DNA from: an uncultured Desulfuromonadales bacterium
GTDB taxonomy: Bacteria; Desulfobacterota; Desulfuromonadia; Geobacterales; Pseudopelobacteraceae
DNA: 50,816 nt
Assembly: GCA_903868145.1 (NCBI GenBank)
Contig: CAIPTY010000014.1
Span: forward strand, 1 to 50,816
Direction: 5' to 3'
Of this stretch, positions 5,201 to 15,611 are shown one piece after another. The notes beneath the pieces were generated by a model. The model worked only from the letters and a program-made list of their open reading frames with translations. It had not been told where the DNA came from and searched no databases. The translations under genes were made by a program, and so were the position numbers. Position 1 is the stretch's first letter. Each line of letters begins with the position of its first letter.

Positions 5201-6937
5201 ATGAATAGCGACGCTCAGAGCCAGGCATTCCTGAAAAACCTCACACTGTTATACGTGGAGGATGAAGAGGATACCCGCGAACAGTTCAGGCAGTATCTGT
5301 CCCGTTATGCCGGCACTCTTATAACTGCCGCTAACGGTGTGGATGGTCTGCAGGCCTATCGAGAGCACACTCCGGACATAATAATCACCGATATTCAGAT
5401 GCCTGTCATGGACGGTCTGTCCATGGTTCACGAAATCCACAGTATCGATAAATCTGTCCCCATCATTGTCCTGACAGCTTTTGAGCAGCCCAATTATCTC
5501 ATTGCTTCCATTGATGCAGGCGTAGCCAGGTATGTCACTAAACCGGTGAACTTGGGCAAATTTCAGGAAGCGCTGCTGGAGTGCGCCCACCGCCTGCTGG
5601 CTGAGGACCGGCTGATAAAATCAATGCGTCTGCTGGAGCAGGGGAATTCAAATGCCAAAATAGCTATCAGCGGCAGTCATGAGACACGGAAACTCTCTGA
5701 CAGCTTTAACAGGATGGTTGACGGGGTAATAGGACTGGTGGACAACACCGCCCAACAGGTGTTCGAACTTGCTCAAGTGCAGGAACGGGCGCAGCATACC
5801 TCCGAACTGCTTGAAATAAACAAGGCGCTTGAAAAATCACTGGCTGAAGTCAGTCACTTGATTTCAATCAGGGAAACCATGTACATGGGCGTTATCAACG
5901 CAATGGTCAGCACCATAGAAGCCAGCGATACGTACACGCACGGCCACTCGTCGAGGGTAACAAGCTACAGTCTTGCATTGGCCAATAGAATCGGGCTGCC
6001 AGCCGGGCGGCTAAAAAATCTTGAACAGGCCTGTATCCTGCACGATATCGGCAAAATAGGCATCGATAAATCCATTCTGCACAAGCCGGGGAAACTTACG
6101 GATGAAGAACTTGAGACCATGCAGCAGCATCCGGGCATTGCTGTACGCATACTCAAAAATATTGAACATCTTTCCGAAGTGCAAAATATTGTAGTCAAGC
6201 ATCATGAACGGTTTGACGGCAGGGGGTATCCAAATGGCCTGAGCGGAGATGACCTGGAGGTAGAGGCACGGATAATCTCGATAGCCGACACCTTTGATGC
6301 CATGACATCCCACCGCCCATACCGCAAGGGTCTGCCTGTCGAAGTTGCACTGGAGGAGCTTTCAAAAAACGCCGGGAGCCAGTTTGATCCTGAGCTGGTG
6401 GCACATTTTATTTCGCTGTTACAGGACGGCGGATTGACGGCGGTCACCGAAAACGAGCTGCTCGAATTGGGAACCGAGTCCAGGAAAAGCGCCGTGGGCA
6501 GCGGGATTGATCAGGAGGCAGGACAGGCGCCGTTAAACGCACTGGTTGTGGAAGATGATCACTTGAGCAGCCTGATGGTGCGGGATTTTCTCAGGCGGAT
6601 GGGAGTCGAAGTTGATGAAGCGGTAACTGCGGAGGCCGGACTCAGGCTGTTTGCAGAGAAACGCCATGATCTGGTATTTGTGGATATAGGACTGCCGGAC
6701 TCCGACGGCTATACGGTTGCAAAAGGGATGCGGCAGATCGAGCAGCACTCTGAACACAATTTTGATTTGAGGGCTGTTATATGCGCACTTACATCCCACA
6801 CGCTGGAGGAAGCCGGAGAGCAGGCGCTTGCCAGCGGTATGAACGTCTTCGTACAGAAACCTTTCAACGTGGAGATCATGCAGGAGATTATTGAAATGGC
6901 AAGCCAGGTCGCCGTGCGCCACAGTCATCTGCGCTGA
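5201..6937 (+). CDS. Receiver-HD-GYP-receiver protein, likely cyclic-di-GMP phosphodiesterase
   Basis: A 578-residue soluble regulator. The first receiver (about 12-130) has phospho-acceptor D64 and K114. A short helical, partly coiled-coil linker follows. The HD-GYP domain (about 230-410) has H281-D282 in HDIGKIGI and [11 protein letters not shown] with GYP at 342-344, the signature of cyclic-di-GMP hydrolases. A second receiver (about 446-570) has D495 and K553. Both receivers keep their key residues, so the enzyme could integrate two phospho-inputs. GAGG-like sequence precedes the ATG. It sits between the remnant kinase and the chemosensory operon, which suggests a link between chemosensing and cyclic-di-GMP, but the partner kinase is not known. 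Confidence 0.88.
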
Positions 6938-6984: not shown

Positions 6985-8793
6985 ATGAAAAAGTTGAAGA
7001 TCGGAGCACGCCTTTTCGCCGGTTTTATTGTGATACTGCTGATGCTGGTGGCCGTTGCGGGGATCAGCTATGTCAACTTGAATATGCTTGGCGGCGAGAT
7101 TGATAACCTGGTCAAGGACAAATGGGTCAAGAGCCAGCTGTTGGCTGATCTTGACAGGAAACTGGATGATGTTTCAACTTCAATCAACATAATTGCACTG
7201 TCGGACTCTGCCGAAGTCAGAAAAAGGGAAGCGGCACAAATAGCGGAGTTCAGCAGAGCTATCAGCCAGGATCTCGAAACGCTGGATAAAATAGTGCCTT
7301 CCGATGCCGGTAAAAAATATCTTGCCGCTATAAAGATGAAACGGGATGCCTACCGGGAAGAACTGAAAAAGGCCATCGATTATGGCAGTGCCGGCAAGCA
7401 GGATGAGGTGGCAGGGCTTGTGCTCGGTTTACTCGCTGAAAAAAAACTGGAATATAACAGAGCCGTTGATGAAATGAATCGGCATCAGGTCAAGGAGGTA
7501 GAACGGGTCAGCGCCGAATGCGCCGGTCGTGTCGATATGTCGAAAACACTCCTGTTTATTTCCGGTATTGCCGCAGTAATCCTGGGTTGCATCCTCTCCG
7601 CGTTCATCTCAAGATCTATTACAAATCCCCTAAATGACTGCGTCGAAGCTGCGGAAAGAATTGCCGCCGGAGATACCGGCGTCATCCTGAACACATCAGC
7701 GCATGACGAAACCGGCGCCCTGCAGCAATCGATGCTCAAGATGACGACCGCTATCAAGCTGATGAGCAGCGATGCACTAATGCTCTCCGAAGAAGCTCTG
7801 GCCGGCAAGCTCACCACCCGTGCCGATGCGGCAAAGCACCAGGGAGAGTTCCGCGCTATCGTGCAGGGTTTCAATGAAGCTCTGGATGCGGTGATGACAC
7901 CTCTCAACGAAGTCCGCAGCATCATCGAGTCTATGGCTGGTGGTGATTTGAGCCGCCGCATGACCGGAGATGCGCGTGGCGAGTTCGCCATTCTCAAGGA
8001 CAGCCTGAACAACTCCATGCAAAATATCGCTTCGGCTATTGGTAATGTTACCCAGAACGCCCGCCAGGTTGCCTCGGCATCTTCCCAGACATCCGCTGCA
8101 GTGGGACAGATCTCTGACGGCTCACAGAACCAGCTGCACGCTATCGGACAGGTGGCGACGGCTGTCAAGCAGACCGCCGCATCAATCGCCGATGTCTCAC
8201 GCAATACTGAGGAGGCGAGTCTGCGTGCCAAGGCTTCAGTGGTCATTGTTAACGAAGGACAGGCCAAGATGGCGCAGATGGTGGCTGTGGTCAACAACAT
8301 CGCCGCCAACAGCGAGAAGATCAACAAGATTACCGATGTAATTGAGAAAATTGCCAACAAGACCAATCTGCTTTCACTCAATGCGGCCATTGAGGCGGCC
8401 CGTGCCGGTGAACATGGCCGGGGCTTTGCCGTAGTGGCCGAAGAGGTGGGCAAGCTTGCCGCCAACGCTGCAGATTCGACCCAGGAGATCGTCGTCCTGG
8501 TCAACCAGGCGGTAAAAGAGGCAAATAACGCAGTATCTACTGTTAATGAAGTCAGCAGCGGCATGCAGAGGATCAGCGAAGGAGCCTTACAGACAGAATC
8601 GATGCTTCAGCGCATTTCTGCTGCTCTTGAAGAGCAGAGCGCTGCCGTACAGGAGATAAATGCCAATATTACCTCACTGAACAAGGTTGCCGAATCGAAT
8701 GCCACCGCTTCGGAGGAGATTACCGCTACCGTGGTGGAACTGTCACGGCTGGCGGATAATACCCGCAAGGAAGCGGAACTGTTCAAGGTGTAG
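6985..8793 (+). CDS. Methyl-accepting chemotaxis protein with repeated HAMP modules
   Basis: A transmembrane chemoreceptor of 602 residues. Membrane helix 1 is at about 10-31, the periplasmic four-helix sensor at 32-185, and helix 2 at 186-208. A first HAMP (209-262) is followed by two more HAMP-like stretches (about 263-303 and 305-355), then the signalling coiled coil with its conserved hairpin tip ([20 protein letters not shown]). The C-terminus ends ELFKV with no pentapeptide tether for CheR/CheB, so methylation enzymes must bind directly. It is the first gene of the chemosensory operon, with AAGGGGGGAC before the ATG. The ligand is unknown. Confidence 0.92.
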
Positions 8794-8812: not shown

Positions 8813-9820
8813 ATGCCGCAACACGCTGTTGAAACGAACATAGATCAGCTCATTTCCGGTCTGAAAACTGCGGTAGGTACCCTCAAGGAATCTCTTGATA
8901 CAGCTCAACTGAAAAACAGTGTGCCGTTTCCGCTCAGCATGAACACCAGACAGGAGATAGTAAGTGTCCTGATGCATGAAGTAGAGCGGCGTTATGGCAT
9001 TGCGCCTGGCGGCCAGGTGGAGCGGAAGCTGGTACGCATTTTTGAAACGATGAACTTCAGTTATCTTGAGCAATGGAGTCAGGCCCTGTTGTCTCCAAAT
9101 GCCATCGAGACGGAATGGCTCTCGCTGGTGGAGTGTCTGACCGTGCATGAGACATATTTTGACCGCGACAAGGAGCAGCTTGGAATTCTGCACAGCAGCA
9201 TCCTGCCCCGCTTGATTGAGCAGAAACACCAGTCGGGCGACTACCGGCTGAGGATATGGTCAGCCGGCTGCTCCAGCGGAGAGGAGACCTATAACCTGGC
9301 CATGCTGGTGCTGATGGCCATGAAAAATGCCGGTTTTGCCCTTGAACAGCGGGATGGTTCCATCATGCTGATACCCTCATGGAGCATTTCGGTAATGGGT
9401 AGCGACATCTCTTCCCAGATGATCCGCATTGCAAAAAGCGCAACCTACACTACCGGCGAAATGGGATCGTTCCGTAATATGAATCCCCTGCTGTGGAGTT
9501 TTTTTGACGAACTTCCGGATCAGGATGCAGGGGCTTTCAAGGCGAAAAGCATGCGCGTAAAAAATTGCGTGTCATTGATCACCGGTTTTTGCCGCCACAA
9601 TCTTCTGGAACCTTTGAAAGAGGTGCCGCCATTTGATTTGATTCTCTGCCGCAACGTTTTGATTTATTTCGACGGCTGCAAGAAGGTCGTGCTGGAACGG
9701 CTGAATAATAGTCTTGCAAGCGGCGGTGTACTCATGCTGGGGGCGACCGATGTCATGCCGGCACGGCACGACCTTAAACGATGCCAGCACAACGGTGTTT
9801 TCTGGCATGAAAAAAACTGA
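8813..9820 (+). CDS. cheR: Chemotaxis protein methyltransferase CheR
   Basis: Transfers methyl groups from S-adenosylmethionine to receptor glutamates. The SAM-binding region shows IWSAGCSSGEE, then a conserved acidic GSDIS and DLILCRNVLIYFD near the C-terminus, the standard CheR order. At 335 residues it is longer than typical CheR (about 270-290). The extra length is an N-terminal extension of about 45 residues without a recognised domain. The ATG chosen gives MPQHAVETN, lies 19 bp after the receptor stop, and follows a GAGGGG motif. It acts with CheB in this operon on the receptor just upstream. Confidence 0.92.
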   Translation: MPQHAVETNIDQLISGLKTAVGTLKESLDTAQLKNSVPFPLSMNTRQEIVSVLMHEVERRYGIAPGGQVERKLVRIFETMNFSYLEQWSQALLSPNAIETEWLSLVECLTVHETYFDRDKEQLGILHSSILPRLIEQKHQSGDYRLRIWSAGCSSGEETYNLAMLVLMAMKNAGFALEQRDGSIMLIPSWSISVMGSDISSQMIRIAKSATYTTGEMGSFRNMNPLLWSFFDELPDQDAGAFKAKSMRVKNCVSLITGFCRHNLLEPLKEVPPFDLILCRNVLIYFDGCKKVVLERLNNSLASGGVLMLGATDVMPARHDLKRCQHNGVFWHEKN

Positions 9821-9835
9821 CGCGGAGACGGTTCC

Positions 9836-11221
9836 TTGGAAGTATTAATCTTTCAGATAGATAAACATCTGTACGGCTTTGATGCCGCCACAGTCATGGA
9901 GATCGTTGAACCGTTGCCGGTAACATGGCTGCCGTTTGCACCGGCAGAGGTTGAAGGCCTTATTAACGTATCCGGACGGGTTATCCCCCAGGTATGCGCT
10001 TCACTGCGTCTGGTACCGGGAGATGTGGCCTGTCCTGATGCAGGTGTCGTCATTATCCTTGCCGTCAGTTACGGCTATTGCGCCTGTCGGGTTTCGCGGG
10101 TCATCGCCAGAAGAAGCATTATGGCTGATGCTGTTGCCAAGCTCGCAGCAGCAGAAACAAGAGACTTCGATACAATTACAACCGGTGAGTTTCTCTGGAA
10201 TGACACCATGGTGCTGCTGCTGGATCCGGAGCAACTGATCCGGGCACGTTCGCCGGAAGAGGTGGACGCCGAAGCAGAAAAGGGTCTTGTTTCCGAAAGG
10301 CATGGCGGAGAGTTTCGCCGGGATACAACCTGCGACGATCTGTTCCCCGCCGTTGTCTTTACCTGCAACAGCGAACTTTTTGCTTTACGCTTCGCTGATG
10401 TGGCCGAAGTCGTGGAAAGCGGGATCATAACCCCCCTGCCGGGCGCCCCCACGGAAATGGCCGGCGTGATTGTTCTCAGGGGTGAGCCGCTGCCGGTGTT
10501 CTCCCTGCGTCTCGTTCTTTTTGGGGACAATACGGAAAATACTCCGTTTACCTTGATTGTTCATATTAATGATTGCCGGGTCGGCCTGCTGGTAGAAAGC
10601 GTTGTCGGTATCCGGCGTTATCCCCGCGAGTCACTGCGGCCGCTGGCCGAGGAGCAGGCGCTTCTGGAAGGGATCATTACAACAGTTGAAAGCCGGGTGC
10701 TGGCGTTGCTCCGGCTTTCAGCCCTGGCGGTTTCTGAACGATTCGCCGCCTGGCAACCCTGGCTGGCAGCCGGCAAAGAGGATTCTGCCGGACATGCTCA
10801 CGAGGCAAAGCCGGCAACCGTGACAAAGCGGATGCTGTTATTCAGACAGGGAAAGGAACTGCTGGCGTTGCCGCTTGATATGGTAGAACGGATCGAGGAG
10901 TATTGGAAACCGACGGCAACGCCGGGTGATCAGTCCAGTACCGTCAACGGTGTTATCCAGGTTCACGGAAATGTCATGCCTGTCCGCTCGCTGGAGAGGT
11001 TTTTCAGGCTCGCCTCCGGTGCTGACCCAAGCGTCTATCTGATTGTGGTAAGTGGCGGAAACCGATGTGCGCTGCCGATTGAAAAAATAGAGCGCATATT
11101 TGATATGGGTGCAGCAGATATCGAACCGGTCGACTCAGGGGTCAACAGCCTGCTGAGCGGAATAGGAACCTGCAATGGCATGCTGGTGTCAATCATTGCC
11201 GCTGAAAGGCTGGTGGTATGA
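9836..11221 (+). CDS. Scaffold protein with three tandem CheW domains
   Basis: CheW couples receptors to CheA. This 461-residue protein contains three CheW-like folds: about 1-140, 167-305 and 329-461. Each opens with a short strand rich in aliphatic residues (VLIFQIDKHLYGF; AVVFTCNSELFAL; MLLFRQGKELLAL). Each carries the GLINVSG / GVIVLRG / GVIQVHG motif typical of CheW. The start is a TTG with GGAG six bases upstream. No separate single-domain CheW exists in the operon, so this protein probably does that job. It could bridge several receptors or CheA units at once. The stop overlaps the cheB start by four bases. Confidence 0.85.
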   Translation: MEVLIFQIDKHLYGFDAATVMEIVEPLPVTWLPFAPAEVEGLINVSGRVIPQVCASLRLVPGDVACPDAGVVIILAVSYGYCACRVSRVIARRSIMADAVAKLAAAETRDFDTITTGEFLWNDTMVLLLDPEQLIRARSPEEVDAEAEKGLVSERHGGEFRRDTTCDDLFPAVVFTCNSELFALRFADVAEVVESGIITPLPGAPTEMAGVIVLRGEPLPVFSLRLVLFGDNTENTPFTLIVHINDCRVGLLVESVVGIRRYPRESLRPLAEEQALLEGIITTVESRVLALLRLSALAVSERFAAWQPWLAAGKEDSAGHAHEAKPATVTKRMLLFRQGKELLALPLDMVERIEEYWKPTATPGDQSSTVNGVIQVHGNVMPVRSLERFFRLASGADPSVYLIVVSGGNRCALPIEKIERIFDMGAADIEPVDSGVNSLLSGIGTCNGMLVSIIAAERLVV

Positions 11222-12279
11222 AGATAAAACTGCTGGTAATCGATGATTCCGCATTCATGCGTACCGCTGTGAGGCTGATGCTGAAGGATGATCCTGATAT
11301 AGAGATAGTGGGCGAAGCCCGCGACGGCCTTACCGCAGTAAATATGCTCGAAACGCTGAATCCGGATGTCATCACCATGGATGTAGAGATGCCCGGCATG
11401 GACGGCCTTACCGCCACCCGCATCATCATGGAGCGTTTTCCGCGCCCGATCATAATGTTGAGCAGCATGACCGGGCATGGGACCGAAACGACTATTAAAG
11501 CGCTGGAAGCGGGAGCGGTGGACTTCATCTCCAAAAAATCTTCATTTGTCCAGCTCGATATCGTCCAGATCGGCAAAGATCTGCATGAAAAAATCCGCTA
11601 TTGGGGAGAGCGGCGTCTGAGGGTTTCCACCGCAAAAAGGGCACAGCACTGTAGCTGGCCTGTTAAAGCCCTACCTGCCTATCCGGGTGGTTTTCGTCCG
11701 GAACTCGTAGTTATCGGTGTTTCCACCGGCGGACCGGCTATTATTCCGAACCTGTTGCATGCCATGGGGCACCTGACCTGTCCGGTTGTCATTGCCCAGC
11801 ATATGCCTTTGCTGTTCACGGAAGGGTTCGCCAGGCACCTGAAGATGTTTACCGGACTGAATGTACTGCAGGCTTCTGACGGCATGGCACTGAAACCCGG
11901 CATGGTTGCCGTATGCCCCGGCGGATCCGACACCACGCTGCGGGAATCTCTGCCGGGGCACCTGGTTTCCTGTGTCAAATCCGATCCGGCAACACAGATA
12001 CACCCGTCTGTCGACAAGCTGTTCCGTTCAGCTGCCCGCCTTGACCGCAAGGTGGTTGCGATTGTTATGACCGGCATGGGGAGTGACGGCACCATTGGAG
12101 CACGCGCACTGTCCGAGCGCGGATGCCCGGTACTGGCGCAGGAACCTGGCGAGTGCACCGTGGACGGCATGCCGTCCTCAGCCATTGAAAGTGGAGTTGT
12201 TAACGAGGTATTAAATGTTGCAAAGCTAGGCCACCGGCTCAGGAAATGGGCCGGGGTGCGCGATAAAGAAAGGATATAG
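11218..12279 (+). CDS. cheB: Chemotaxis methylesterase/deamidase CheB
   Basis: A response regulator that removes receptor methyl groups when phosphorylated. The receiver (1-120) has the acidic pair at D9-D10 and acceptor D55 in TMDVEMPGMDG. The esterase domain (about 160-345) has the catalytic triad S169 (GVSTGGP), H195 (AQHMP) and D290 (GMGSDG). Length (353) is normal. It overlaps the triple-CheW gene by ATGA and is followed after three bases by a free receiver whose sequence resembles its own receiver domain. Confidence 0.95.
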   Translation: MKIKLLVIDDSAFMRTAVRLMLKDDPDIEIVGEARDGLTAVNMLETLNPDVITMDVEMPGMDGLTATRIIMERFPRPIIMLSSMTGHGTETTIKALEAGAVDFISKKSSFVQLDIVQIGKDLHEKIRYWGERRLRVSTAKRAQHCSWPVKALPAYPGGFRPELVVIGVSTGGPAIIPNLLHAMGHLTCPVVIAQHMPLLFTEGFARHLKMFTGLNVLQASDGMALKPGMVAVCPGGSDTTLRESLPGHLVSCVKSDPATQIHPSVDKLFRSAARLDRKVVAIVMTGMGSDGTIGARALSERGCPVLAQEPGECTVDGMPSSAIESGVVNEVLNVAKLGHRLRKWAGVRDKERI

Positions 12280-12282
12280 ATT

Positions 12283-12690
12283 ATGCCGAAGACGATTATT
12301 GTGGTTGACGATTCGTTCGTCATGCGAACTCTTATCAAGGACATTTTGTCTGTAGATCCCGATCTTCAGGTGGTGGGGGAAGCGGCCAACGGAATCGAGA
12401 CGCTGGAAAAAGTCAGACAGCTGCAGCCGGATCTCCTGCTGCTTGATATTGAAATGCCGGGAATGGACGGCATCGAGTGTCTGAAACGCCTGAAGCTGTT
12501 GAGCCCATGCAAGGTTGTGATTGTCTCCTCGGTCGCCCAGGCCGGTTCCCAGCAGGCAATGGAGTCACGCAAACTCGGCGCTTTTGATGTCATTTCCAAA
12601 CCGTCCGGCGCCTTGAGTCTGGATCTGAAGGCAAAAAAAGGGAGTGACATCGTAAAAATATCCCGTCGGGCGGTCGGTCTGCCGGAATGA
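12283..12690 (+). CDS. Free receiver protein, CheB-receiver-like (CheY role possible)
   Basis: A single receiver domain of 135 residues with D9-D10, acceptor D55 (LLDIEMPGMDG) and K106 in DVISKPSG. The IEMPGMDG segment, VVSS-type switch and GAFDVISKPSG end are closer to CheB receivers than to classical CheY. This suggests it arose by duplication of the neighbouring cheB 5' end. It would be the output regulator or a phosphate sink of the CheA encoded next, whose start overlaps its stop. Confidence 0.85.
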   Translation: MPKTIIVVDDSFVMRTLIKDILSVDPDLQVVGEAANGIETLEKVRQLQPDLLLLDIEMPGMDGIECLKRLKLLSPCKVVIVSSVAQAGSQQAMESRKLGAFDVISKPSGALSLDLKAKKGSDIVKISRRAVGLPE

Positions 12691-15611
12691 GCGAATTCAT
12701 CGAGAACCTCTGGTCTCAATTTGCCGTTGAGACTCAGGAACATATCGAGGATATCGAACTGAAACTCGTCGAATCAGAACAGAACGGCGCTTCTGCTGAA
12801 CCGGTCAGCGCCCTCTTTCGGGCTTTTCATTCCCTGAAAGGGCTTGCCACTGCCATGGATATGCACTCCCTGGCGCGGGTAGCCCACAGCGCCGAAGATG
12901 TTCTGGGCTTAGTCCGTGAAGGAGAACTTCAGCTGAACAGCGACATTGTGTCGTTGCTGCTCGCTGCCTTGGATGAAATCAAGCTGCTGTGCCAGAGCGC
13001 CGCAACGTCACACACGGACGCAGAAGTCAATTCCTACGTACTGCAGCAGCTTACGGGAATTTCAGCATCAATCGTACGTCCTGCCGTCGACATGAATCCG
13101 GTCGCTTCCGATGACCGGCACTCGGACACGCCGCTACAGGCAGATCCCGAGATGCTGGGTTATTTTGTCGAGCTGGCACGTGAAAAAACAGCAGTCATTA
13201 CCCGTATTCTGGAGCCTCTCTGCAGTATGTCCGAAAGGGAGATCGAGCTGAACGGAGGAGAATTTCACGAACTTGCTGCTGAGGAAATTGAGCAGTTTTC
13301 TTATGCAGGCAGGACGATGGGCTTTTTAAATCTGGTGGAAATTCTGGCACGCCTGCGCGATGCGTTGCCTGCTGATAGCCGGTTTGACTGCGACAGCCGG
13401 AAAACCATCATTGAGAGCCTGTGGGAACTCCATGACCAGCTGCGCTACATAGAACATTCCGGCGGCTTCCTTGACGCCGGAGCAAACAGGCTGCACACGA
13501 TACTTTCAGATGCCATGCAAATCAACATCCGGCGGCTTTTTACGAGGGTCCTGGACCAGCTTGACGTACTGCAGGAGAGCGACAGGGATAATCAGGATCT
13601 GATTGCCCAGTCGCTTCAGGCCGATCTTTCGGCACTCAACTCACACCTGGCGTTTTTCATGTACAACCCGAATTGCAACATCATCCTGATGCTTGAAGAC
13701 GTTTTCAGCAGAGCCGCCAGGGGAGAGTTGCATCTGTTCAGCGAGATAATCGATATGACGCGGGAGGAGGTAACCCATGTCATGGAGCATTATCGCGGTT
13801 GCTCCGACGGTGGCGCGTGCGTGCGGGATGACGGGGAAATTGCCCGAAATATTCAGCGTATACATGATTATATCTGGGCATATGAGTCCGGCTGCGGTGC
13901 CGGCAATCCGGTAGAAGCTTTCAGGCAGTTCATGGGAGGGTTGAATATCGAGCCTGAACTGCTCAAAATTCTCTCTCCGGAAAATGTGCGCGAGTTGATG
14001 CAGGCTCTGGAAAATGGGGAGCAGGTCTATGAAGTATCGGCGCACCTCGAATCGAACGAGGAAATGACATCCACTTTTCTGGCCTGGATTGAATCCGGCA
14101 GAAGCAGGATTATAACAAACAGGTCGCTCTTCATCGATGACAAAAGCTGGTACGAGATGCTGATGGTTTCTCCGCTCTCCCGCAGCGAAATTAACAGCAA
14201 CCTCAAAGCCATAGATCCAGACGGTTCCAATCTTTGCCTCAAACCATGGACCGGCGGGATTCCTGCCAGGGAAAAACTGTTGAAGTCAATCGAAGAACCT
14301 CCGGAACGGCAGCAGCTAAATACTGATTCTGGCGGCATATCGAGCAACGTGATACGTGTTCAGGGCGAATCTCTTGACGGTTTTATGAATCTGATCGGCG
14401 AAATGGTGCTGGCGCGCAGCCGCTTGAATCATGTCATCAACCATGAACGGCTGAACTGTGCGATGACCCTTCTCAGGCAAATGGATACCGTCAGCAGCCA
14501 TGGGTGCGCTGAACTGCTGGATCTGCTCGAAAAGCACCGCCGCGAACTGGTTGAGACTGACCAACTGCTGAACAATTCGCTCGGACGTCTTCAGGCAAGT
14601 GCCGTAGGGTTGCGGGTTGTGCCGGTGGAAATGGTTTTCAAGCGGCTGCCGAGAGTTGTACGCGACCTTGCCAGAAACCAGGGGAAGCGGGTGCGTCTTG
14701 AAATGGGCGGACAGGAAGTAAAGATCGATAAGGCCATGGTGGATATCCTGACCGATCCGCTGCTTCATTTAGTGCGGAACTGCGTGGATCACGGCATTGA
14801 AACACCGGATGAGCGGAGTTTGGCCGGAAAAGTCAAGGAAGCGGTCATCCGCGTATCTGCCGCACAGCGAGGCAACGGAATTGTCATAGAAATTTCCGAT
14901 GACGGCAAGGGGATTGACACGGACAAGGTACTGCGCAAGGCTGTCGAACTGGGGCTTGTGAACAGGGATAAGGCGGATTCCCTGCCGAGGGAGGCGATTC
15001 TGGGTTTCATTTTCGAGCCGGGTTTTTCCACAGCTGCAACAGTAACAGAAACGTCGGGGCGCGGAGTCGGTATGGATGTGGTTATGACCAACGTCTTGCG
15101 TATGGGCGGCACCATCACGGTTGACTCAGAAGCGGTGCGCGGCACAACTTTTACCCTGCTGATGCCGCTTTCCGCTGCAATTCAAGAGGTAATCATGGTT
15201 GAGGTGTCCGATAACATTCTGGCGATTCCCGGCCGTTGGGTTGTTGAAGTGGCTGAAATTGATAATGAAAATATACAGACCGTGCGGGGGGATGAGGCTG
15301 TCCTGTTGCGCGGAGATTTTCTCCCGCTGCATCGGCTTTCAAAGCTGCTCGGCTATCCAGATTCGGTCAGCGAAAGAAGCGCCTCCACCGTGGTGGTGCT
15401 GAGCAGCGGCAGCCAGACAATTGGTCTTGCGGTGGATAAGGTGTTGCGACGTCAGGAACTGTTCGTCAAGGATATTCAGGAGATGGTCGCTTCACTGCCT
15501 GGAGTGAGTGGCGCATCGATCCTCGGCAATGGGCACGTGGTGCTGATTCTGGATGCGGAAGATCTCCTAAGACTGGCAAAATCGAGCCGCCAGAGGAACC
15601 AAGCGACCTGA
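12687..15611 (+). CDS. cheA: Chemotaxis histidine kinase CheA, enlarged
   Basis: The central kinase of the operon, at 974 residues well above the usual 650-700. The N-terminal Hpt domain carries the phosphorylated H48 in FRAFHSLKG. The stretch from about 150 to 550 replaces the usual CheY-binding P2 domain. Part of it (about 155-235) looks like a second Hpt fold without its histidine (EQFSYAGRTMG where FRAFHSLKG would align), and more helical sequence follows. Dimerisation P3 is at about 555-670. The ATPase P4 has HLVRNCVDHGIE, SDDGKGID and GRGVGMD. The CheW-like P5 is at about 835-965. It would phosphorylate the preceding free receiver and CheB. The gene start overlaps the receiver gene (ATGA). 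Confidence 0.92.
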   Translation: MSEFIENLWSQFAVETQEHIEDIELKLVESEQNGASAEPVSALFRAFHSLKGLATAMDMHSLARVAHSAEDVLGLVREGELQLNSDIVSLLLAALDEIKLLCQSAATSHTDAEVNSYVLQQLTGISASIVRPAVDMNPVASDDRHSDTPLQADPEMLGYFVELAREKTAVITRILEPLCSMSEREIELNGGEFHELAAEEIEQFSYAGRTMGFLNLVEILARLRDALPADSRFDCDSRKTIIESLWELHDQLRYIEHSGGFLDAGANRLHTILSDAMQINIRRLFTRVLDQLDVLQESDRDNQDLIAQSLQADLSALNSHLAFFMYNPNCNIILMLEDVFSRAARGELHLFSEIIDMTREEVTHVMEHYRGCSDGGACVRDDGEIARNIQRIHDYIWAYESGCGAGNPVEAFRQFMGGLNIEPELLKILSPENVRELMQALENGEQVYEVSAHLESNEEMTSTFLAWIESGRSRIITNRSLFIDDKSWYEMLMVSPLSRSEINSNLKAIDPDGSNLCLKPWTGGIPAREKLLKSIEEPPERQQLNTDSGGISSNVIRVQGESLDGFMNLIGEMVLARSRLNHVINHERLNCAMTLLRQMDTVSSHGCAELLDLLEKHRRELVETDQLLNNSLGRLQASAVGLRVVPVEMVFKRLPRVVRDLARNQGKRVRLEMGGQEVKIDKAMVDILTDPLLHLVRNCVDHGIETPDERSLAGKVKEAVIRVSAAQRGNGIVIEISDDGKGIDTDKVLRKAVELGLVNRDKADSLPREAILGFIFEPGFSTAATVTETSGRGVGMDVVMTNVLRMGGTITVDSEAVRGTTFTLLMPLSAAIQEVIMVEVSDNILAIPGRWVVEVAEIDNENIQTVRGDEAVLLRGDFLPLHRLSKLLGYPDSVSERSASTVVVLSSGSQTIGLAVDKVLRRQELFVKDIQEMVASLPGVSGASILGNGHVVLILDAEDLLRLAKSSRQRNQAT

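Follow-up and report, generated by a model that had tools for sequence, protein, structure and literature searches.

The gene at positions 9836 to 11221 of the window, by which we mean the whole stretch of 50,816 nucleotides analysed from an uncultured Desulfuromonadales bacterium, encodes a triple CheW (CheW3) with three true CheW domains, here called D1, D2 and D3. Triple CheW proteins are already known; this one belongs to a distinct lineage, accompanied by membrane receptors, with its own conserved pattern at positions 38 and 62 (E. coli CheW numbering). This lineage, hereafter lineage A, consists of 14 copies in 13 genomes, from the window's family and from Gammaproteobacteria. The initial annotation was too strong in treating three tandem CheW copies as uncommon, since they are described for the F9 CheW3 (PMC9321776, PMC7534058) and for Che2 of R. 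centenum, which has a tripartite CheW (PMC2890560). According to the published account, F9 systems combine DosM, a receptor with tandem double signalling domains, with a CheW of concatenated triple domains, and full F9 clusters were counted in 64 of 2781 species (PMC9321776).

The reading frame encodes 461 amino acids and starts at a TTG codon, with a GGAG at 9824-9827, eight bases 5' of it. Pfam profile PF01584 matched three stretches of the protein (217 bits summed), and a six-frame search with the same profile placed D1 at 9839-10246 (74.5 bits), D2 at 10349-10732 (86.8 bits) and D3 at 10832-11215 (69.4 bits), against a cut-off of 23.5. Thus, three CheW domains in one chain, as first proposed, were indeed found, not one or two, and chance or weak matches were ruled out because all three lie well above the cut-off. 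A P5-like nature of D1 and D3 was likewise ruled out, as these domains scored 9-32 bits with a profile of other P5 domains vs 36-90 bits with a profile of stand-alone CheWs. The domain bounds below come from our own CheW profile, built from 16 sequences that include these three domains.

9836 to 11221, forward strand: CheW3, three CheW domains, 461 aa (reading frame and three PF01584 matches)
9842 to 10246, forward strand: D1, residues 3-137; E22 at position 38 and S46 at position 62, R62 lost
10349 to 10735, forward strand: D2, residues 172-300; canonical pair E191/R215
10832 to 11218, forward strand: D3, residues 333-461; E38 replaced by R352 and R62 by H377; its end is also the C-terminus of the protein

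Spacers of 34 and 32 residues separate the domains. D1 was assigned to CheW by profile match, D2 by profile match and by its sequence match to CheW sequences in the PDB (E 5e-9), and D3 also by a structural model. Predicted on its own, together with 36 other sequences, D3 adopted a CheW fold (pLDDT 93.2, pTM 0.86). The best PDB match of this model was 6s1k_C (E 2.5e-10), a chain of the core signalling unit of E. coli, and every one of the 18 PDB matches with an E value up to 0.001 was to a CheW, CheA or core-unit entry. A prediction of full-length CheW3 with one other sequence gave a pLDDT of 30.1.

The gene lies in a che operon with the order REC-HD-GYP-REC, MCP, CheR, CheW3, CheB, CheY, CheA, in which the partners of CheW3 are as follows.

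5201 to 6937, forward strand: REC-HD-GYP-REC protein (Pfam), a receiver at each end, 5' of the receptor
6985 to 8793, forward strand: membrane receptor with 4HB_MCP_1, HAMPs, one signalling tip and two predicted transmembrane stretches
8813 to 9820, forward strand: CheR, start taken as ATG 8813 (the listed reading frame begins at TTG 8687)
11218 to 12279, forward strand: CheB, overlapping the end of cheW3 by 4 bases
12283 to 12690, forward strand: CheY, overlapping cheA by 4 bases
12687 to 15611, forward strand: CheA, 974 aa, with Hpt, dimerisation, HATPase and CheW (P5) domains; lineage A clade

The CheR reading frames of two relatives (L254 and L255), of 337 and 340 aa, bear on the choice of the CheR start. 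In agreement with the initial annotation, there is no second stand-alone CheW in the window operon. CheW3 is thus the operon's only stand-alone CheW, yet not the cell's only one, since the genome holds six others, and one of these may still take its place, the refuting case named by the initial annotation. Its 17 CheW matches divide into three in CheW3, six in CheAs, two in CheV-like proteins with a receiver, and six in stand-alone CheWs. The last two groups lie entirely on contigs other than the window's, the stand-alone CheWs on C15, C76, C10, C83 (two) and C23, and five of these six are clustered with another CheA. On C23, a small set of CheR, MCP and CheW genes (L062:5519-8170) has no CheA in the 15 kb examined; in the domain tree its CheW is placed on a very long branch.

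Searches of 57 and of 395 genomes, together with a protein-only contig scan, gave no close relative of the window copy. Its apparent uniqueness was overturned by the CheA, which led to Gammaproteobacterial relatives, and by a search of the class, which gave five relatives in the same family. Among the best 80 matches in a CheA scan of named genomes, two CheAs had 51% and 48% identity and the rest at most 41%. Both come from metagenome-assembled genomes, named Methylococcaceae and Moraxellaceae, and both genomes have a CheW3 (E 1.3e-62 and 2.4e-43 against that of the window). CheW3 relatives were sought in taxon sets at a threshold of E 1e-14. Two of 369 genomes matched in the class of G443, including G443 itself; in its family 10 of 151 did: two have lineage A copies, and the other eight scored 54-66 bits, all five examined among them having DosM. 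Four of 149 genomes, with five copies, matched in the family of G444, and one of two, G677 itself, in that of G677. The window's class gave 14 of 277 genomes, namely the window's, five more with lineage A copies, and another eight that scored 54-66 bits; of the three examined among these eight, G036 and G392 have DosM and the match in G035 is two separate CheW genes. All these rates are rough, because at most four candidates per genome were scored in the draw of 395 genomes and in the class of G443, and at most six in the window's class, and because the draw of 395 missed the five same-family relatives. The five same-family relatives all belong to one other genus and their CheW3s have 42-58% identity to that of the window, while no CheW3 was found in the three other genomes of the window's own genus.

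The order MCP-CheR-CheW3-CheB-CheY-CheA is found, as far as the contigs reach, at the window and at L231, L242, L245 and L254-L258. Two MCP genes, CheR, CheW3 and CheB lie together at L229 and L230, and in G443 the CheY-CheA pair is separate, apparently on the same contig. L232 and L244 have CheW3-CheY-CheA followed by MCP, CheR and CheB, and L243 is cut. All 14 cluster receptors are single-tip and none is of the DosM type; transmembrane stretches are predicted in 13 of them, the 14th (L257) being short at a contig end. An HD-GYP gene lies upstream in all five same-family loci whose upstream side is visible (window included), and none was found in the stretches of eight Gammaproteobacterial loci with a profile of two sequences, L231 showing little upstream DNA.

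Two further observations concern single loci or subsets. The copy of G1307 (L258:7231-8199, reverse strand) has D1 and D2 only (322 aa); its cheB begins within a few bases, and the CheA is 706 aa long. Either D3 is dispensable somewhere or this assembly is wrong. Secondly, a small CheW-like gene of 128-150 aa, divergent in sequence, overlaps the 3' end of cheA at all five Gammaproteobacterial loci that show this end. It is present at one of five loci in the window's family (L254, the closest relative, four bases after cheA) and absent at the window, L256, L257 and L258; a search for it in the window's own genome returned only CheW3 itself, at E 0.48. The small genes are located as follows.

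L133, 10278 to 10706: small CheW-like gene
L231, 8128 to 8541: small CheW-like gene
L232, 11259 to 11684: small CheW-like gene
L244, 4626 to 5078: small CheW-like gene
L245, 14800 to 15186: small CheW-like gene
L254, 16378 to 16773: small CheW-like gene

In E. coli CheW, a salt bridge between E38 and R62 is described as holding the receptor and kinase sites in alignment, and an R62A variant is reported to bind both partners still, with chemotaxis impaired (PMC3828127). This pair, highly conserved in CheW if not strictly defining, is kept in D2 and altered in D1 and D3 of lineage A. D2 reads E/R in 14 of 14 copies. In D1 the pairs are E/A (seven copies), T/N (three), E/S (two), E/G (one) and R/D (one), so that R62 is absent in all 14. 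D3, which is present in 13 copies, has R/E (five), R/Q (four), R/H (two) or R/R (two), and hence R at position 38 throughout. At the same positions in other proteins, E/R is found in all 36 domains counted at 13 further CheW3 loci (the 12 with DosM plus L079) and in all six domains of the f29 CheW3s (two loci), making 42 of 42 CheW3 domains outside lineage A. R62 is present in 97 and E38 in 83 of 98 stand-alone CheWs. The P5 domains of lineage A CheAs are E/R in six of six cases, and other P5 domains have R62 in 123, E38 in 120 and R at position 38 in 2 of 127, a count containing two duplicate rows (L134 and L080). The earlier suggestion that the three domains differ in their core motifs therefore stands, the differences at positions 38 and 62 being conserved in relatives. 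Nine copies first revealed the pattern, and the five later ones fit it for D1 and D2 (5/5 each) and for position 38 of D3 (4/4). A rule that R62 is always lost from D3 did not hold in two of four later copies and was given up. A reversed salt bridge was also rejected as a general feature of D3, since R/E occurs in only 5 of 13 copies and R at both places in two; with position 62 mixed (E in five, Q in four, H in two, R in two), it holds for a subset at most.

Where the lineage came from was examined in trees of CheA and of the CheW domains. In a quick CheA tree of 131 rows, which omits the duplicates L134 (= L232) and L080 (= L130) as well as contig-cut and low-score CheAs, the six lineage A rows formed one clade (support 100, starred) and 11 of 12 F9 rows another (99, starred), with lineage A outside. 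Upon addition of four late copies, all ten lineage A rows grouped together (100, starred), the window's beside that of L254 (75% identity). Moreover, the adjoining CheA fell in the lineage A clade at all nine loci that show CheA and CheW3 whole. The initial annotation had proposed a phylogeny of each CheW domain; in our 167-row domain tree, with nine copies and the five late ones not in it, D1 (99), D2 (98) and D3 (98, all starred) each formed a clade of their own, and no lineage A domain clade lay inside any F9 domain group. The domain trees omit the cut first domain of L078 and the interrupted middle domains of L118 and L130. The triple CheW of L130 (L130:13939-15783, reverse strand) carries in its second domain about 85 residues that by eye resemble a CZB zinc-binding domain; in L118 the second domain is likewise interrupted, but only briefly.

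Two origins are compatible with much of this. The triplication may be common to lineage A and F9, lineage A being a derived F9 in which membrane receptors replaced DosM, a reading to which we give slightly less than an even chance. The three-domain architecture is alike in both, with similar spacers (24-35 residues in uninterrupted proteins), and several D2s score slightly higher with the profile of the first F9 domain than with that of stand-alone CheWs. AU tests also keep such a relationship: a clade of lineage A and F9 CheAs was not rejected (p 0.252, with 42 of 113 other rows), nor was D1 with the first F9 domain (p 0.641) or D2 with the second (p 0.676), the constrained tree having in both domain tests a higher likelihood than the free one. 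Furthermore, in the 167-row tree the domains of the CheW3 at L079 (4866-6338, reverse strand) are placed beside D1 and D2 of lineage A (support 80-81). L079 may itself be either an intermediate or F9, because the contig ends within its receptor and one tip is visible. Against a derived F9 stand the position of lineage A CheA outside the F9 clade, a gene order that is not the same, the uniform E/R of the other CheW3 domains, and the receptors: 0 of 14 receptors in lineage A clusters are of the DosM type, vs 12 of 15 other CheW3 loci that have such a receptor. In these 12 the neighbouring receptor has two tips about 300 residues apart, and 11 of them lack a predicted transmembrane stretch, that of L235 having one inside the signalling part; the remaining three loci are L079 and two (L076 and L077) without such a receptor in the stretch examined. 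Alternatively, a single CheW may have triplicated independently in lineage A, in convergence with F9, which we also regard as quite plausible, if not quite an even bet. It would agree with a 91-row tree that leaves out L079, L062 and all but 25 of 98 stand-alone CheWs, where a single branch (support 82, not starred) separates all 27 lineage A domains from the rest. However, D3 stands apart from D1 and D2 in the 167-row tree (weak support of 66), and the AU tests allow orthology with F9.

Whatever the origin, purifying selection acts on D1 and D3 as it does on D2 in the five pairs of relatives compared. Nei-Gojobori dN/dS was 0.11-0.28 for D1, 0.12-0.41 for D2 and 0.07-0.28 for D3; the value of D1 or D3 exceeded that of D2 in only one of ten comparisons (0.233 vs 0.232). 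These pairs come from outside the window's family and from the nine copies then known, and the values are rough because three pairs share sequences and many dS values exceed 1.

We somewhat favour a reading of CheW3, drawn from its sequence, as a canonical coupling module joined in one chain to two modified modules that would sit at other positions of the baseplate. D2 would then act as an ordinary CheW, coupling the receptor tip to CheA P5, and D1 and D3 would be tethered CheW domains with a coupling pair altered in a fixed, domain-specific manner, most likely filling further CheW positions in P5/CheW rings or in CheW-only rings. Spacers of 34 and 32 residues would reach neighbouring baseplate positions. 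One coupling position and two structural or differently coupled positions might thus be delivered as one unit, by a protein that would be the dedicated adaptor in a chemosensory system built on membrane receptors, with a make-up unlike that of F9. CheA would signal to CheY and probably also to the HD-GYP protein encoded upstream, and through the latter to c-di-GMP, an output that the gene neighbourhood of the REC-HD-GYP-REC protein makes likely. Ring positions, non-equivalent binding and output are what we infer.

That D1 and D3 instead dock other partners outside the baseplate, such as CheR, CheB, the HD-GYP protein or CheA P1/P2, could account for a coupling pair that is altered while purifying selection persists. 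We consider it unlikely, as the CheW fold is kept in the D3 model, the stand-alone CheW profile fits better than that of P5 (36-90 vs 9-32 bits), and we know of no such partner. Degeneration of D1 and D3 into copies without function, to which the loss of R62 or E38 and the G1307 copy without D3 might point, is very improbable given the low, D2-like dN/dS in the five pairs, domain-specific residues that are constant in 13-14 copies, and the separate clades.

Going beyond the tethered-module reading, we would propose only tentatively, again from sequence comparison, that lineage A is an undescribed class in which D2 couples, D1 is uncoupled and D3 is re-wired through R at position 38, in a membrane array. 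In the literature consulted, chiefly open-access papers, we found no membrane receptor linked with a triple CheW. If the proposal is true, ring composition and signalling topology would be written into one gene. Identical CheWs make both the ring composition and the need for coupling at each position hard to test. Here, three distinguishable CheWs, one with the canonical pair and two without, are tied together in one chain, so that stoichiometry and coupling could be changed domain by domain.

The closest known counterpart is F9, where VC1402 of V. cholerae cluster I is likewise the triple-domain CheW of a full che operon (PMC9321776, PMC7534058); it was set against the window by its published description only. 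As described there, the F9 protein works beside cytoplasmic, double-tip DosM of heptad class 44H (PMC9321776) in membrane-free sandwich arrays, the V. cholerae array having two CheA/CheW layers around cytoplasmic receptors (PMC7534058), whereas the window has a single-tip membrane receptor. The predicted transmembrane stretches of this receptor argue against purely cytoplasmic arrays of the F9 style. CheW3s of DosM loci are 520-614 aa long (the L078 frame is listed at 422) with E/R in all domains counted, in contrast to the window protein, which has 461 aa, E/R in D2 only, and 21-29% identity to them. Among 20 PF00015 matches in the window's own genome, no DosM was found. Only one frame there, on C15 (L055:3451-5382, reverse strand, 643 aa), has two separate matches, both degenerate, and lies beside another CheA; a 630-aa protein on C76 (L056:3350-5242, forward strand) has one degenerate match. 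Each of these clusters also encodes a CheA, a CheW and an ordinary MCP, and the two proteins are DosM-like in outline only.

Che2 of R. centenum, again compared by description, likewise has, within a che cluster, a CheW made up of three distinct domains; its reported output is lateral flagella, other than chemotaxis (PMC2890560). CheAs with two or three CheW domains are also described (PMC10542144), in which the copies reside in the kinase and not, as at the window, in a stand-alone adaptor. Nearer in taxonomy, the f29 operons L076 and L077 of the same phylum encode CheW3, CheB and CheR with no DosM within 15.5 and 14.6 kb; unlike the window protein, their CheW3s are E/R in all six domains, and their similarity to it is weak (26%, BLAST). 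By eye, both operons encode a protein with HEAT-like repeats, and L077 adjoins genes resembling fliM/fliN. Lastly, Wsp-type operons, like that of the window, combine a membrane receptor, CheR, CheB, CheA and a c-di-GMP enzyme, but where the window has CheW3 and an HD-GYP protein, Wsp relies on two single-domain CheWs and a diguanylate cyclase.
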